Shown here one piece after another: positions 5,555 through 46,729 of a DNA stretch of 46,729 nt. The stretch is from Clostridia bacterium. GTDB lineage: Bacteria > Bacillota > Clostridia > Christensenellales > Pumilibacteraceae. Location of the stretch: contig JAFVXY010000006.1 in assembly GCA_017500845.1 (NCBI GenBank), positions 1-46,729 on the forward strand, in the 5' to 3' direction. Both the position numbers and the translations under genes were made by a program. Every line of letters begins with the position of its first letter. The stretch's first letter is position 1. The notes under the pieces are model-generated. The model had not been told where the DNA came from. It ran no database searches and saw only the letters and a list, made by a program, of their open reading frames with translations.

Positions 5555-8509
5555 ATGACTAATTTTGCAATTAATTTTACGTTACCATGGCTCCTTTTGT
5601 TGCTCATTCCAGCGGTAATTCTTACTTTTTGGCCTTACTTCCGTTTGGCTAAGAGATACAGACGCACAAGAAACCGTATCATTTCCATAGTATTGCACCT
5701 TTTGATTTTGGTAATGAGTATTTCGGTTTTGTCCGGCATGACCTTTACCTACGACATTCCCAACGAGGAAAACGAAATCGTAGTCATTGTTGATATGTCG
5801 CACAGTAGTATAGAGGATCACGTCAACAGCGACAATATATTTGTTGAAAAGACAAGATTTGTTCGAGACGTTTTGGAGGAGAGTGATTCTCTTTATAAGG
5901 TAGGTATCGTTGCTTTTGGCTATAAGCCTGTTACTGTTGTCGAGCCTACTTTTGATTGGGAAGTAGCTTATGAAACCTTTGTTATGTTTGCCGATGATCA
6001 AGCAACCGAAAACAAGGTTATTGATGAAACCGCTTCGGATATTTCCGCTGCACTCGAGCACGCTGCAAACATCGTAGCAAAAAAAGACGGTGCTAAGTTG
6101 CTTGTAGTTACCGACGGTATCGAAACCGACGGTGATGCACTTGCGACGGTTCAGCGTCTTGCTGCCGAGGGCGTTAAGGTAGACGTTGCCGCATTCGGAG
6201 AAGAAGTAGAATCCGAAGTAGAAATTATCGACGTTGAAATGCCTGAGGGAAACATCAAGCTTAACGAAATCTTTGAAATCAAAGTTACCGTTAAAAGCAT
6301 GATTGCAGGTGAGGCAACTCTTACCGTATCGGACATCGAAATGTCTGAAAATGATTTCAACTATCAGCCTGTTTCTCATACTGTAAATCTTACTGCTGAT
6401 GTAAACGAGTATGTAATTCAGCATAAGTTTGATCAGCTTATGGGTATGCACAGATTGCGCTTCAATATTACTCAGCAAAATGACGGTTTCGGCGAGAACA
6501 ATGAGTATTATACGTATGCGTATCTTCAAAAGTTCGACAAGATTCTTATGCTCGAGGGCTTCTCGGGTGAGGCAACTCCGGTAAAAGAGGCGTTGATCAA
6601 CTACGGCGAATATGAACAAGAGGACATTACCGTTGTAAATATCAACCCCGAAAACGGCAACTTTGCTTCTGTGCCCAAGACTGTTGACGAGCTTCGTAAC
6701 TACGACCAAGTTGTTTTGGTTAACGTAGCAAACAGTGACTTGCTTAACTCCAATCCCTTGGCGGATGCTCCCAACTACAATGCTGCGCTTGAAGCAAACT
6801 ATATGCCCGTTGGCTTTGACGAAATGCTCAACGATTATGTAGAGATTTATGGCGGTGGTATGTTATACGTTGGTGGTAACGAGCCCGGTACCGAGGACAC
6901 CCCGCATGCGTTCAACGACGTTGATATCAACTACACAGAAAACGAAAATAAAAGCACTTTGGATAATCCCGTTTATCATACGGCACTTAAAGAAATGCTT
7001 CCGATTGACGTAGTTGAGTACACTCCGCCCATTGCAGTAATGCTTATCATTGACCGTTCCAACTCCATGGAAGCTTCGGTTAACGGTAAGACCTACCTTG
7101 AGTGGGCAAAGGACGCAGCTAAGGAATGTCTTAGTGCTCTTTCGTATCGCGATTACATGGGTACCATGACCTTCAGCGATACATACGAAATTCCCGCACA
7201 GATCAGCTCCGTGCTCGAGCGTCAAACCATAATTGCTGAGATTGATGCAATTAAATCCGGTGGTGGTACTGCTTATGCAGGCGCAATTCAACGTGCCAGT
7301 CAAGCACTTGCGGCTATCGGTGACGACAAGGTTGCAGCGCGTCACGTAATCATTATCAGTGACGGTGATCCCAACGACGCAGCAAACACCGGTGACGGTA
7401 ACGGTTGGGCGGAGATTCTCCAAACCTATCATACCGGTAACGCAAAGATTACGTACTCTATGCTTGATATAAGCGGTAATCCTAAGGGAGATCTCCAAGG
7501 CATCTTCTCCGAGGAAAACAGTGGCGGTATTTACGAGACTGTATCCGCAGGTGAATTGCCCAACCTTCCTCAGCTTATTAGAGATGAAATTAAAACCGGC
7601 GATATTGAGTCTTATGTAAACGAGCAGTTTACTCCGGCGGTTCAGATGCTTAACAGCGGCGTTCTTTCCGGCCTTGGTAGTGAACAAATTGCTTTGATGC
7701 CTCAACTTACCGGTTACTACGGTACTCGTGCTAAGGGTGCTGCAAATACCGTTTTAAGAGCACCCTATGTTCCTTTCTATTCCGAGTGGAACTTCGGTAA
7801 AGGTAGAGTAGGTGCAATGATGACCAACTTTGACGAGACCAATAAGGTTTTCCTTACTAACTTTATAGGACAGACAATTATGTCCAATATTGTTACCGGT
7901 CTTATGCCGTCTGAGGACATCCGCCCCAAGGATATTAACGTAATCTTGACGGAGGAAAACTACAACACGAGAGTGAGTGTATCTACCTCTATTGAAGCTG
8001 GTCAAAAGGTTAGAATTACCGTTACAGCGCTTGGCAGAATAAACGAGGGAGATTATACTCCGCAGGTTGTTGAGCTTAGCGAAGCAGACGGATATAGCCG
8101 TGCAAATATCGAAATCACCGATCCCGGCGTTCATAGCTTACTTGTAGAAAAGTACGTTTATAACGCGCAAGGACAGGTCGAAGTAATTTCGTCTAATACC
8201 GTTTATAAGACATTCTCGTATTCTAAAGAGTACGACGTGTTCGTAAATCAAACGACTATAGACGAGTTTATTGAGGATCTTGCTGAAAAGGGTAGAGGTT
8301 CGGTAGTTGACCAGTCTGATGAAGATGGTATTCCCAATATCTTCAGAGATTTCGATGCCGGTGTTTCTAAGGTGTTCGATCCGCGTTATCTGTTTATGAT
8401 TTTGGCAATTATCTTCTTCTTGCTTGACATTGCAGTTCGTAAGTTCAAGTTCAAGTGGCCGCACGAAATCATACGTGACTACAAGGAACGCAAAAAGCTG
8501 GCAAAATAA
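5555..8509 (+). CDS. Large membrane protein with two vWA domains flanking a glutamine-amidotransferase-like domain
   Basis: The protein has 984 residues. Membrane segments lie at about 8-28, 43-62 and, at the C-terminus, 946-965. The first vWA domain (about 74-230) has IVVIVDMSHSS and the second (about 491-690) has MLIIDRSNSME, both with intact DxSxS metal sites; the second also has ISDGDPND. Between them, around 335-480, is a Rossmann-like segment (KILMLEGFSG, then VVLVNVANSD, then GGGMLYVGG) resembling the class I amidotransferase fold of DUF1355-type proteins. I see no catalytic Cys at the expected elbow. It starts 17 bases after the preceding gene behind AAAGGAG. Both domains should face the outside. 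I infer that it is the main adhesive or scaffold component. Confidence 0.8.
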   Translation: MTNFAINFTLPWLLLLLIPAVILTFWPYFRLAKRYRRTRNRIISIVLHLLILVMSISVLSGMTFTYDIPNEENEIVVIVDMSHSSIEDHVNSDNIFVEKTRFVRDVLEESDSLYKVGIVAFGYKPVTVVEPTFDWEVAYETFVMFADDQATENKVIDETASDISAALEHAANIVAKKDGAKLLVVTDGIETDGDALATVQRLAAEGVKVDVAAFGEEVESEVEIIDVEMPEGNIKLNEIFEIKVTVKSMIAGEATLTVSDIEMSENDFNYQPVSHTVNLTADVNEYVIQHKFDQLMGMHRLRFNITQQNDGFGENNEYYTYAYLQKFDKILMLEGFSGEATPVKEALINYGEYEQEDITVVNINPENGNFASVPKTVDELRNYDQVVLVNVANSDLLNSNPLADAPNYNAALEANYMPVGFDEMLNDYVEIYGGGMLYVGGNEPGTEDTPHAFNDVDINYTENENKSTLDNPVYHTALKEMLPIDVVEYTPPIAVMLIIDRSNSMEASVNGKTYLEWAKDAAKECLSALSYRDYMGTMTFSDTYEIPAQISSVLERQTIIAEIDAIKSGGGTAYAGAIQRASQALAAIGDDKVAARHVIIISDGDPNDAANTGDGNGWAEILQTYHTGNAKITYSMLDISGNPKGDLQGIFSEENSGGIYETVSAGELPNLPQLIRDEIKTGDIESYVNEQFTPAVQMLNSGVLSGLGSEQIALMPQLTGYYGTRAKGAANTVLRAPYVPFYSEWNFGKGRVGAMMTNFDETNKVFLTNFIGQTIMSNIVTGLMPSEDIRPKDINVILTEENYNTRVSVSTSIEAGQKVRITVTALGRINEGDYTPQVVELSEADGYSRANIEITDPGVHSLLVEKYVYNAQGQVEVISSNTVYKTFSYSKEYDVFVNQTTIDEFIEDLAEKGRGSVVDQSDEDGIPNIFRDFDAGVSKVFDPRYLFMILAIIFFLLDIAVRKFKFKWPHEIIRDYKERKKLAK

Positions 8510-15996: not shown

Positions 15997-17310
15997 ATGA
16001 GTAAACCGTTAGTGGCGGTGGTCGGCAGACCTAACGTCGGAAAATCAACATTTTTTAATAAAATTTGCGGCAAAAGAATATCCATAGTAAAGGATACGCC
16101 GGGTGTTACCCGAGACCGCATTTATGGGGACGCAGAGTGGTGTAGCTATTATTTTACTCTAATTGACACGGGCGGAATAGAGTACGACAGCGAAGATATA
16201 ATGTTTAAGCACATTCGCAGACAGGCAGAGGCAGCGGTGGAGATTGCAGACGTAATTTTGTTCTTTGTGGACGGAAAGGACGGCTTGCTTGCTTCCGATA
16301 TGGATATTGCCGATTACCTTCGCGCATCTAACAAACCGGTAGTTGTAGCGGTAAACAAGCTTGACAACAACGAGCAAGATACTCTGTATGATTTTTACAG
16401 CCTTGGCTTGGGTGAGCCTATTCCTATTTCGGCAGAGCAATCTAAGGGACTTGGCGATTTGCTTGACGAGGTGGTTAAGCACTTTGACCGTATAGAAGAA
16501 AATCCATCGCTTGGACTTAGAATAGCTGTCGTAGGCAAGCCCAACGTAGGTAAATCGTCTATTGTCAACAAGATTCTTGGATACGAGCGAGTTATCGTCA
16601 GCGATATTGCGGGCACTACCCGAGATGCGGTAGATACCCCGCTTGAGCGTAACGGCAAGGAATATACTATAATTGATACTGCGGGACTAAGACGTAAGCG
16701 TGGCATAGATTTTGATTCGGTAGAAAGCTTTAGCGTTATGCGTTCCATTGCGGCAATTAAGCGTGCAGACGTTGTATTGATGGTTTTTGATGCGTCCGAG
16801 GAAATTTCGGAGCAGGACGTTCGTATTGCGGGCATGGTGCACGAGGAAAAGAAGCCGTGTGTTATCGTTATGAATAAGTGGGACAGTATCGAAAAGGATA
16901 CCCATACAATCGAGCAGTACAAAAAGGATTTGGACAACAAGCTCGCATTTATGAGCTATTACGTGCCCGTTTTTGTATCAGCTCTTACCGGTCAGCGTGT
17001 GGATAAGATTTTTGATTACGTCGATACCGTTTACGAAAATGCGTCGAGGCGCATTCCTACAGGCATACTCAACGACGTAATTCGCGAAGCAGTTGCGCTC
17101 AACGAGCCGCCCTCGCCGAGCGGAAGAAGACTCAAGATTATGTATGCAACGCAGGCATCTACAAATCCGCCCAAAATCGTTATTTTTGTCAATAACGAGG
17201 AATTGTTGCATTTCTCGTATCGCAGATATCTCGAAAACAGCTTGCGTAAGGCGTTTGACTTTTTGGGAACACCAATCGACGTGGTTTATAACAGCAAAAA
17301 GGAAGAATAA
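15997..17310 (+). CDS. der: Ribosome-assembly GTPase Der (EngA)
   Basis: This 437-residue protein has two tandem GTPase domains and a C-terminal KH-like domain, the standard Der layout and length. The first G1 motif is GRPNVGKST at about residues 8-16 and the second is GKPNVGKSS near 179-187. The G3 motifs are DTGG and DTAG, and the G4 motifs are NKLD and NKWD. Der acts in the cytoplasm in maturation of the 50S ribosomal subunit and is essential in most bacteria. AAGGAG lies 7 bases before the ATG. A T-rich region with a TATGAT (15966-15971) upstream may hold the promoter, but the -35 is unclear. plsY follows after two bases. Confidence 0.97.
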   Translation: MSKPLVAVVGRPNVGKSTFFNKICGKRISIVKDTPGVTRDRIYGDAEWCSYYFTLIDTGGIEYDSEDIMFKHIRRQAEAAVEIADVILFFVDGKDGLLASDMDIADYLRASNKPVVVAVNKLDNNEQDTLYDFYSLGLGEPIPISAEQSKGLGDLLDEVVKHFDRIEENPSLGLRIAVVGKPNVGKSSIVNKILGYERVIVSDIAGTTRDAVDTPLERNGKEYTIIDTAGLRRKRGIDFDSVESFSVMRSIAAIKRADVVLMVFDASEEISEQDVRIAGMVHEEKKPCVIVMNKWDSIEKDTHTIEQYKKDLDNKLAFMSYYVPVFVSALTGQRVDKIFDYVDTVYENASRRIPTGILNDVIREAVALNEPPSPSGRRLKIMYATQASTNPPKIVIFVNNEELLHFSYRRYLENSLRKAFDFLGTPIDVVYNSKKEE

Positions 17311-22366: not shown

Positions 22367-22380
22367 TATTGTGCTGAGAT

Positions 22381-22587
22381 TGCGGCACAAGATATGTTCA
22401 ACCGACAGAGAGCGCCTTTTGCTGAGATGGCGCACGAACAAAAAATATTCACCGCAGGAGCTTGTTGCTGAAGTAGTAGTAGGTAGCCGTTGGGAAGCGT
22501 TTTCCCGCAAATGAGGCTTGTTTTAAGCGAAGTTAGGTGGTACAGTGCGAGTTTTGCACCCTAATAGTTTTATTAGGGTGCTTTATT
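22381..22587 (+). promoter_or_regulatory. Phenylalanine T-box leader
   Basis: This tRNA-sensing leader controls pheST. The Stem I base pairs TGCGG (22381-22385) with CCGCA (22452-22456). The specifier TTC (Phe) at 22448-22450 is followed by a purine and sits directly before the closing helix, where it should be. Above it GTTC (22396-22399) pairs with GAAC (22436-22439), and GCGCC (22412-22416) with GGCGC (22429-22433). The antiterminator forms from TTAGG (22533-22537), a 7-base bulge TGGTACA (22538-22544) and GTGC (22545-22548), pairing with GCAC and CCTAA at 22556-22564. The bulge TGGT would pair with the ACCA end of uncharged tRNA-Phe. Uncharged tRNA-Phe therefore switches the operon on. 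Confidence 0.95.
22556..22587 (+). terminator. T-box regulated intrinsic terminator
   Basis: A perfect 11-bp stem, 22556-22566 with 22571-22581, has a GTTT loop and is followed by a T-rich stretch. Its left arm is shared with the antiterminator, giving the mutually exclusive fold of a T-box switch. Confidence 0.95.
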
Positions 22588-22630: not shown

Positions 22631-23647
22631 ATGGAACAAAAAATTATTGAGCTTGTAAATGAAACAAAGGCAAAAGTAAACGCTATTGCTTGTGCAAAGG
22701 ATTTGACCGACCTTAAGGTTGAGGTTCTTGGCAAAAGCGGTGCGCTTACTCTTATTTTGCGTGGATTAAAGGATTTATCCGAGTCTGACCGCCCCAAGAT
22801 GGGCAAGATTGTAAACGAGGCGAGAGTGGAGCTGGAAAAAGTTATCGGCGAAAAGTTTGTGCAGCTTGAGCGCAAGGAGCTTGACGAAAAGCTTATGAAA
22901 GAGAAAATTGATATTTCCCTTGATAAAAAGACTACGCTTGGCAAGCTTCATCCCCTCAACGTAATGAGACGCAAGGCTATAGATTTCTTCGTTTCGATGG
23001 GCTTTATTGTTACCGACTCGCCCGAAATTGAGACCACCTACTATAATTTTGATATGCTCAATATCCCGCCTGACCATCCGGCGAGAGAAATGCAGGATAC
23101 CTTTTTTGTAACGGATAAAATTTTGCTTAGGACGCAAACCTCGGCAGGACAAATTCGCACGATGGAGAAGATTAAACCGCCCATCAAAATGATTTCGCCA
23201 GGTAGGGTGTTCAGAAGTGACGAGGCAGATGCGACTCACACACCGTGCTTCCATCAGATTGAGGGACTCGTTGTGGATAAGGGAATTACCATGTGTGACC
23301 TCAAGGGTATTTTGGCATCGTTTGCAAAGCATTTCTTTTCCGAAAATTCGTCCGTACGCTTCCGTCCCTCGCACTTTCCGTTTACCTAGCCAAGCGTAGA
23401 GGTGGATGCATCCTGTCCTCATTGCGGTGGCAAGGGCTGTAATGTTTGTAAGGGTACCGGTTGGATAGAAATTCTTGGTGCGGGCATGGTAAATAGACAC
23501 GTTCTTAGCGGTTGCGGAATTGATCCCGATGTTTACACGGGTTTTGCGTTTGGCGTAGGACTTGATCGTATTACGGCTATTTGTCATGGTATAAATGACG
23601 CTCGCGTGCCTTTTGAGGGCGATATTCGCTTTTTGAAGCAGTTTTAA
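22631..23647 (+). pseudogene. pheS: Phenylalanyl-tRNA synthetase alpha subunit interrupted by an in-frame TAG
   Basis: The whole frame is 338 codons plus the stop, the normal length for PheS. It has the N-terminal coiled-coil region, motif 2 (FRSDEADATHTPCFHQIEG), the zinc-ribbon-like [17 protein letters not shown] and motif 3 ([10 protein letters not shown]). The upstream part is 22631-23386. At 23387-23389 a TAG replaces the Glu codon of the invariant FPFTEPSVEVD, and the same frame continues without any other damage to 23647. A single G-to-T change (GAG to TAG) explains it. PheRS is essential, so this is either a sequencing or assembly error, a suppressed or read-through codon, or a recent mutation compensated elsewhere. 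GGAGG precedes the ATG, and pheT follows after 9 bases. Confidence 0.93.
23387..23389 (+). other. In-frame TAG codon at the conserved Glu of PheS
   Basis: The codon lies between FPFT and PSVEVD. Three other genes here (ending at 15799, 32780 and 44489) use TAG as a genuine stop at a natural C-terminus, so general reassignment of TAG is unlikely. None of the tRNA genes in the window has a CTA anticodon. Confidence 0.95.
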
Positions 23648-23656
23648 GGAGAGATT

Positions 23657-26065
23657 ATGAAATTACCTATTAGTTGGTTAAAAGAATTTGTAAGCACCGA
23701 TGCGAGCGTTAAGGATATATGTGACGCGCTTGTTGGCGTTGGCTTTGAGGTAGAAGAGGTAATAAATTACGGCGAAGGTATTTCGGGCGTTGTTGTCGGC
23801 AAAATAATAGATATTAAGGCTCATCCCGATGCGGACAAGCTACGAATTTGTTCAGTTGACGTCGGCAAAGAGGTGGTAACAATCGTTACAGGAGCAAGCA
23901 ACGTAAGCGTTGGCGACGTTGTTCCCGTTGCTTTGGACGGAGCAGTTTTGCCTGACAAGAGCATTAAGGCTGCGCCGCTTCGTGGCGTTATGAGCTATGG
24001 CATGATGTGCTCCGGCGGTGAGCTTAAAATAAGCGAGGCATTTGTTGACGGCGCTTCGGTGGATGGAATTATGATTTTGGATAGCTCATTGACGCTTGGT
24101 GAGGATATCGTTACAGCACTTGACCTAAAAGAAACCGTGCTTGACGTGTCTATTACGGCAAACCGACCTGATTGCCATTCCATTCTTGGATTAAGCCGCG
24201 AGGTAGCAACTGCACTTACGCATTGTACCGTAAACGGCAGATCTCTTAGTAGCGGCGCTGTAAGGGTTAAGATGCCTTCTTTTGATTTTGTTCAGCATGA
24301 CGTTACGGCGGCAATACCTAGAGTGCGTATTACTTCGCCTGATTGTCCGGTATATTCAAGCGCTATGCTCGACAGCATAAAAATAGAAAAAAGTCCCAAA
24401 TGGATGCAACGACGCCTATTTATGTGTGGCATAAATCCCATAAATAACGTTGTTGATATTACTAACTATGTTCTTTTGGAGATTGGACAACCGTTGCATG
24501 CCTTTGATTTGAGTATGATTGAGGGTGACGTTACCGTTCGTCTTGCCGGCGATAAAGAAAAAATTACCGCACTTAACGGTGAAGAATACGAAATGTCGGG
24601 CGATATGACGCTGATTTGTGACGACAAAAAGCCGCTTGCAATTGCAGGCGTTATGGGCGGTAAATATAGTGGAATATCGGATGATACTAAGGCTGTATTT
24701 TTAGAAAGCGCGAGATTTGCGCGTGGAAGCGTTCGAACGACTTCTCTTAAAATTGGGCTTAGGTCTGATTCGTCTACAAAGTTTGAGCGTGGCGTTGATT
24801 ATTATAGTGTAGAATATGGTAGAAAGCGTGCGCTAAGCTTGTTCGAGCAGTTGGGCGCAGGTCGTGTTCTTGTAGATAGGCCTGTTGCAATGCCCGAGAA
24901 AAAGGTGATTGATACCACGATTGATGCCATAAATGGTCTTTTGGGTATAGAAATGCCCAAGAAGAATATGGTGGAAATCTTGCAGTCGCTTGGTATGGAC
25001 GTTGTAAATGAATGCAGATCGCTTATGGTGACCATTCCGCATTACCGTGAGGATATGGATAATTTCACCGATTTAGCTGAGGAAATTATTAGATTTTATG
25101 GCTACGACAAGATGGAAGAAACGTTTATGCCCACGGCGGCAGTTACCGTTGGCGGTATGACGCATAAGCAAAAGCGCATAGAGGCAATTAAGGACTTGAT
25201 TTGTTCGTTTGGCGCGTACGAAATCATGACGTATTCATTTACGGACGAGGGCGTTTTTGATAAGCTTAACTTATCGCCAGACGATGCTCGTCGAGGCGCA
25301 ATACGCATAATCAATCCCATAAGCGAAGATTTGTCTATTATGAAGACAGAGCTTGTGTCAGGTATGGTGTCGGTAGTTGCAACCAACCTTACACGTAAAA
25401 ACGACAATTTCCGCTTGTTCGAGCTTGCAAGAGTTTACGAAGCGAAGCTTCCCATAGCTGAATTGCCCGATGAAAAGGATATTCTTTGCGTAGGCTTGGT
25501 GGGCGGCAAAGAAGATTTCTATCAAATCAAAAATATCTTTACCTCGACTTTGGAACACTTTGATATAGATTATTCGGTTGTTGAGAGCACCGAGCCGTAC
25601 TTGCATCCGGGAATGAGCGCAGACCTTCTTGTTGGCGGAAAGGTTGTATGCTCGTTTGGTAAGCTTCATCCGCTTGCGGCTAAGAGCTTTGGCATAAAGA
25701 AGGCGGACGTATATGTGGGCTATTTGCGTTGCGAGGTTATAACGGACGGAAAGGATACCGTGGTAAAATACAAGCCGCTTCCCAAATTCCCCTCGGTTGA
25801 GCGTGACCTTGCTTTTGTTGTAGAGGAAAATTCGCAGGTAGGAAAAATAGTAGCGGCAATAAAGGAAACAAGCTCACTGGTTGGCGATGTTGACGTATTT
25901 GATATTTATCGCGGAGCGCAAATAGAAAAGGGATTCAAGAGCGTTGCGCTTAAGATTAAGCTTGTTCCTACCGATAAAACGCTTGTCGATGCCGAGATTG
26001 CGGGAGTTATGACGAGTGTTGTCCAAATGATAAAATGCAAATTTAATGCTAAGGTGAGAGAATAA
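23657..26065 (+). CDS. pheT: Phenylalanyl-tRNA synthetase beta subunit
   Basis: This 802-residue partner of PheS completes the alpha2-beta2 enzyme that charges tRNA-Phe. Domains in order are the N-terminal tRNA-binding domain (about 40-150, HPDADKLRICSVDVG), B3/B4 editing domain (about 215-385), B5 domain (about 400-470), the catalytic-like core, and the C-terminal anticodon-binding FDX-ACB domain (about 710-802, KFPSVERDLAFVVEE). AAGGAG precedes the start. The stop overlaps the next start (TAATG). The frame is intact, which argues that the operon is active despite the TAG in pheS. Confidence 0.97.
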   Translation: MKLPISWLKEFVSTDASVKDICDALVGVGFEVEEVINYGEGISGVVVGKIIDIKAHPDADKLRICSVDVGKEVVTIVTGASNVSVGDVVPVALDGAVLPDKSIKAAPLRGVMSYGMMCSGGELKISEAFVDGASVDGIMILDSSLTLGEDIVTALDLKETVLDVSITANRPDCHSILGLSREVATALTHCTVNGRSLSSGAVRVKMPSFDFVQHDVTAAIPRVRITSPDCPVYSSAMLDSIKIEKSPKWMQRRLFMCGINPINNVVDITNYVLLEIGQPLHAFDLSMIEGDVTVRLAGDKEKITALNGEEYEMSGDMTLICDDKKPLAIAGVMGGKYSGISDDTKAVFLESARFARGSVRTTSLKIGLRSDSSTKFERGVDYYSVEYGRKRALSLFEQLGAGRVLVDRPVAMPEKKVIDTTIDAINGLLGIEMPKKNMVEILQSLGMDVVNECRSLMVTIPHYREDMDNFTDLAEEIIRFYGYDKMEETFMPTAAVTVGGMTHKQKRIEAIKDLICSFGAYEIMTYSFTDEGVFDKLNLSPDDARRGAIRIINPISEDLSIMKTELVSGMVSVVATNLTRKNDNFRLFELARVYEAKLPIAELPDEKDILCVGLVGGKEDFYQIKNIFTSTLEHFDIDYSVVESTEPYLHPGMSADLLVGGKVVCSFGKLHPLAAKSFGIKKADVYVGYLRCEVITDGKDTVVKYKPLPKFPSVERDLAFVVEENSQVGKIVAAIKETSSLVGDVDVFDIYRGAQIEKGFKSVALKIKLVPTDKTLVDAEIAGVMTSVVQMIKCKFNAKVRE

Positions 26066-46679: not shown

Positions 46680-46729
46680 GGTCCATTAGCTCAGTCGGTA
46701 GAGCACTTGACTTTTAATCAAGTTGTCCC
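46680..46729 (+). tRNA. tRNA-Lys (TTT anticodon), cut by window end
   Basis: The acceptor GGTCCAT, D arm and anticodon arm are present. The anticodon loop CTTTTAA in stem CTTGA/TCAAG gives TTT. The T arm and 3' end lie beyond the window. Confidence 0.9.

Follow-up and report, generated by a model that had tools for sequence, protein, structure and literature searches.

The part of Belinky et al. (2021; PMC7918605) on which we draw regards in-frame stop codons as transient, persisting about as long as polymorphisms within a population, and anticipates that artefacts make up a substantial fraction of the raw cases; to limit such artefacts, the authors kept stops common to at least two species. 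In some yeasts, according to the excerpted text of PMC8629427, false stop-codon inferences are attributed to in-frame stops in pseudogenes. Gut phages that recode TAG, in the excerpts of PMC9523058 and PMC10607447 considered here, have TAG reassigned to Gln or, in one phage, carry TAG within 41 ORFs.

Here we describe an in-frame TAG in the pheS gene of an uncultured Clostridia bacterium from the gut. The window, by which we mean the whole stretch of 46,729 nucleotides that was analyzed, is contig C19 of a draft genome (G000; 1.28 Mb in 22 contigs, rated 75.4% complete), and the locus comprises:

22367..22566, + strand: T-box leader of pheS–pheT (cmscan RF00230, 54.1 bits, E 2.9e-11)
22631..23386, + strand: pheS codons 1–252, 5′ of the stop (Pfam PF02912 and PF01409 positions 2–170; one residue differs from the nearest relative, L062)
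23387..23389, + strand: in-frame TAG, codon 253 (Glu in relatives)
23390..23647, + strand: pheS codons 254–338 and TAA, 3′ of the stop (PF01409 positions 172–246; 17 synonymous and 0 amino-acid changes relative to L062)
23657..26065, + strand: pheT, intact (open frame of 802 aa; long stop-free tblastn matches from relatives' frames)

Positions 22631–23647 form a single frame of 338 codons with the final TAA at 23645, which around codon 253 reads RFRPSHFPFT, stop, PSVEVD. Both PF02912 and PF01409 are present in pheS, yet not within one open frame, as the TAG interrupts the catalytic core. The stop splits the PF01409 profile at position 171 and the two pieces match up to and directly beyond it, so one codon was replaced and nothing else was lost; the 3′ piece includes FAFGVGLDR, which we take to be class II motif 3. 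With the T-box before it and pheT after it, the gene has the context of a PheRS alpha subunit. The initial annotation had described pheS as otherwise undamaged and pheT as intact, and both descriptions hold. It had also called the Phe T-box intact: the element is recognizable, with a probable Phe specifier TTC at 22448–22450 (a by-eye reading of the RF00230 alignment), but its score lies below the Rfam gathering score of 93, and it goes unreported at that threshold.

Codon 253 encodes Glu in every related locus that covers it (116 of 116; 84 GAG and 32 GAA), which bears out the claim that the TAG replaces an invariant Glu, and no internal stop occurs in the aligned part of pheS among these 116 loci. 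The alignment was given 117 related loci, one of which (L087) lies on a contig that ends before the site, and contains 103 distinct aligned proteins; some loci are the same genome entered twice. It supersedes an earlier motif search that recovered codon 253 in 66 of 111 loci, counting that of the window, the motif having been too strict. In a search of 41 genomes, G000 alone had a stop in its pheS match and none of the 40 relatives did (39 of their matches span the site, while that of G028 covers profile positions 193–246 only). No stop was present among the pheS matches listed from a class-wide survey of 391 genomes, the row of G000 not being among those listed.

The closest record found, in a search that may omit records from the window's own genome, is L062 (Clostridiales bacterium isolate SIG389; stated coverage 1.07), with 90.4% DNA identity over 4,745 aligned bases (~4.7 kb). 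Its codon 253 is GAG, one base away from TAG, in agreement with the single GAG-to-TAG change proposed initially. The alignment has one gap, which lies in the leader and outside genes (default alignment settings: three gap openings). Overall, pheS differs from L062 by 67 synonymous codons, one Lys/Gln change, and the TAG: before the stop, 201 codons are identical, 50 are synonymous, and 1 is changed (the Lys/Gln); after it, 68 are identical, 17 are synonymous, and 0 are changed. Such equal constraint on either side, with no decay, implies that the stop either arose very recently or does not exist. From this codon comparison, we infer that pheS was fully constrained on both sides of the TAG until very recently, or still is.

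The 3′ piece could in principle be made separately, with termination at the TAG, re-initiation at GTG 23402, where an 81-aa frame begins, and assembly of the two pieces into a split enzyme. However, no properly spaced ribosome-binding site was seen by eye, the catalytic core would be cut, and the aligned relatives are uniformly free of stops in this part of the gene, and we regard a split enzyme as very improbable.

PheS is a core synthetase. Because its gene is present as a single match in the G000 contigs, a true and unsuppressed stop should be lethal. One way around this is a true, very recent nonsense mutation, carried either by part of the population or by a strain that has another pheS copy in the quarter of the genome that is missing. 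The TAG, if real, arose after divergence from L062, whose codon (GAG) encodes Glu as in the other relatives, and loss would be tolerable if another pheS copy exists. Against this, the second pheS envisaged by the initial annotation was not found in the contigs of this 75.4% complete genome, and each of seven other genomes of the genus has one strong pheS match, the additional weak match in G002 being below the family cut-off. We consider a true recent nonsense mutation unlikely.

Alternatively, TAG might be read as sense throughout the genome, either by reassignment or as pyrrolysine, a reading that would cover the three in-frame TAGs that we judged to be mid-gene (see below). Genome-wide TAG recoding entails loss of TAG as a terminator and loss or alteration of RF1, whereas in G000 we found RF1 (prfA) at full length (511.9 bits, no stop) and TAG as the terminator of 181 of 965 long coding-like frames. 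Within the window, TAG ends 3 of the 30 genes taken as real; this matches the number of TAG-ended genes reported initially, but none of them directly neighbors pheS as had been stated. The accompanying claim that the code as a whole is standard is upheld by the genome-wide count and by RF1. For pyrrolysine, PylS presumably matches family PF01409, and no second PF01409 match was found in the G000 contigs (75% complete), nor a tRNA with a CTA anticodon. Genome-wide reassignment and pyrrolysine are nearly refuted.

A more limited proposal is that the TAG is real and that an amber suppressor tRNA or leaky termination gives full-length PheS, for example with Gln at position 253. In its favor, the pheS sequence 3′ of the TAG is fully conserved relative to L062, but the full-length RF1 and the regular use of TAG as a terminator count against it, as does the tRNA complement. 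The CTA anticodon whose presence had been raised initially was found neither among the 30 tRNAs listed by ARAGORN for G000 (plus one tmRNA), an incomplete set, nor in the 28 distinct ordinary tRNA sequences drawn from 30 Rfam hits, which also include one odd hit, L060. tRNAs for Phe, Asp, and Tyr were likewise absent from the ARAGORN list for G000; the lack of a CTA tRNA is therefore weak evidence, and a suppressor could sit in the missing part of the genome. The odd hit is:

L060:1500-1612 (G000:C17:17641-17753): tRNA-like gene (Rfam RF00005, 53.6 bits)

Its anticodon arm carries an insert of ~40 bases, by eye it encodes no CCA, and ARAGORN calls it a tRNA-Cys with an intron, only if introns are allowed. 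We considered L060 as an unusual suppressor tRNA and dropped it: it has no standard anticodon arm, no canonical anticodon loop was found in it, and its near-identity with the sister genome G005 extends to the flanks. An anticodon-loop pattern run over eight genomes of the genus gave 14 matches versus 22 in a reversed control, and its three matches in G000 were rejected (a tRNA-Arg(TCT), a tRNA-Ser 3′ fragment, and one judged from the letters alone). The tRNA gene cut by the contig end at window positions 46680–46729 has the anticodon TTT (Lys) by eye. On contig C22 of G000 there is a tRNA-Ser-like 3′ part with no 5′ half by eye (L162:470-528), as at the attachment site of an integrated element.

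The other in-frame stops of the assembly bear on both suppression and error. Coding-score filters missed pheS itself, so a six-frame coding scan of the G000 contigs was used instead. It returned 98 rows, of which 64 were set aside (within 8 codons, they have a start preceded by a purine-rich motif) and 34 were read; 66 rows similar to those set aside, from the older coding-score filter, were also read. Among the 34 rows, we judged four stops to be mid-gene, pheS included (three TAG and one TAA), a minimum that rests on reading plus Pfam searches of the pieces at 8 sites. The other three, and one ambiguous site, are:

L181:1494-9665, − strand, TAG at 7343 (C9:7343): S8 peptidase-fn3-LRR large protein, stop between the S8 peptidase and fn3_5 domains
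L183:8094-8543, − strand, TAG at 8294 (C11:8294): ArsC-like low-molecular-weight phosphatase (LMWPc), second piece 20.3 bits (cut-off 23.2)
L222:15577-17364, TAA at 16018 (C15:76018): BspA-type LRR protein, in-frame stop
L192:6645-6956, stop at 6828 (C21:6828): Gly-rich small frame, TAG, then an in-frame membrane-like stretch, no Pfam match on either side

The last could be one more in-frame TAG, the fourth, or the boundary between two genes. Two further TAG sites, C20:120332 and C11:34784 (the latter judged without a Pfam search), look like gene ends, without family support, and the downstream pieces at C21:6828, C20:120332, C11:53973, and C14:80718 had no Pfam match. Within the window, the scan lists two positions only, 23387 and 44016, the latter a gene boundary, and reading of ~19.7–31.5 kb with relatives' frames aligned revealed no other mid-gene stop.

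At the phosphatase stop, 28 of 29 homologous loci have Gln and one has His, while at the peptidase stop the four other genus members examined have Lys or Gln, and seven loci beyond the genus have Thr, Met, Ser, Leu, or a gap. These alignments suggest that the three TAG sites do not demand one common residue, and Gln could serve all three. In G017, a peptidase homologue (L294) carries a TAG elsewhere in its sequence, which shows that a second draft genome of the family contains such stops as well. For the phosphatase, the best match beyond G000 (87%) comes from a genome that belongs to a different family, and G005 has none; the gene may therefore be recently acquired.

Given the codon usage of the window, one-step nonsense opportunity is 46.6% for TAG, 36.8% for TAA, and 16.6% for TGA, and the probability of at least three TAG among the four judged stops is 0.26 (0.15 for at least four of five if C21:6828 is added). 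Internal TAG thus shows no clear excess over TAA and TGA, the numbers being so low that a weak effect could go unseen. An apparent bias in an earlier filter, where 10 of 23 rows were TAG, mostly disappeared once the rows were read, most of them being normal ends of genes with a neighbor in the same frame behind. The two additional genes with TAG at Gln or Lys/Gln sites speak for suppression in that one Gln-inserting suppressor could serve all three, but one judged internal stop is TAA, and the TAG excess is not clear. Taking both sides together, we find suppression or leaky termination distinctly unlikely. Its most specific form, a weak, plausibly Gln-inserting suppressor encoded in the unassembled quarter of the genome, with in-frame TAG tolerated in pheS and at least two other genes alongside working RF1, seems to us more doubtful still. 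If this were true, the code of a wild gut bacterium would be ambiguous, and it would be surprising for a free-living bacterium to tolerate an ambiguous stop in an essential synthetase.

As a control, 343,728 bases of G005, the sister genome, were compared with G000. The G005 frames (297 coding-like frames, 92,118 codons) met 41 stop positions in G000, of which only pheS was judged a true mid-gene stop; the others were leaders, gene ends, or non-gene frames. In the reverse direction (308 frames, 93,644 codons), 38 positions, one of them within 15 bases of a contig end, included no clear mid-gene stop. A six-frame scan of the G005 part gave 12 rows, all read as gene ends.

We conclude that the pheS TAG is most likely an isolated nonsense codon that arose as a sequencing or consensus error or as a rare non-viable variant, to which we assign a probability of roughly 0.7. 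The G to T difference from the sister codon would be a single-base change in a draft metagenome-assembled consensus, or the assembler may have picked a rare non-viable variant carrying the TAG; the living population would most likely have a Glu codon and make normal PheS. We would expect reads or other strains to show a Glu codon at position 253. The rest of the G000 assembly also contains internal stops, infrequent and not all of one type, and occasional base errors or stray variants explain all four judged stops without further assumptions. By our arithmetic, since 4% of single-base substitutions yield a stop under the codon usage of the window, four stops correspond to ~100 random substitutions in ~1 Mb. 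Counting against error, the window has no other judged mid-gene stop, TAG accounts for three of the four stops judged mid-gene and for the one at C21:6828, and in-frame stops are reported, in the part of PMC7918605 used here, to be widespread in bacterial genes that evolve under purifying selection. Among the options offered by the initial annotation, sequence error or a very recent mutation fits best, while nothing positive emerged for suppression or read-through. On balance, the genomic comparisons point to a single-base error or stray variant rather than a new reading of the genetic code. Caution is thus in order when a draft genome shows one nonsense codon in a core gene, as about one random substitution per 10 kb suffices by the same arithmetic.

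The pheS stop resembles the cases of Belinky et al. (PMC7918605), as far as the portion cited here describes them: it is an isolated in-frame stop, its gene remains under purifying selection, and the sequence nearby is otherwise little changed. Unlike the shared stops retained there, it is present in no relative that we examined. It has in common with the TAG-recoding gut phages, in the cited excerpts of PMC9523058 and PMC10607447, an in-frame TAG within a gene; unlike in those phages, TAG here is a common terminator, with only three clear internal cases in 1.28 Mb. Finally, the intact sister PheS, which matched 29 distinct PDB sequences (the weakest being phosphoseryl-tRNA synthetases), has as its best match the bacterial PheS of PDB 4p71 and aligns with it over residues 20–338, FPFTEPS included. 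Compared with bacterial PheS of known structure, the pheS described here differs only by the stop at codon 253.
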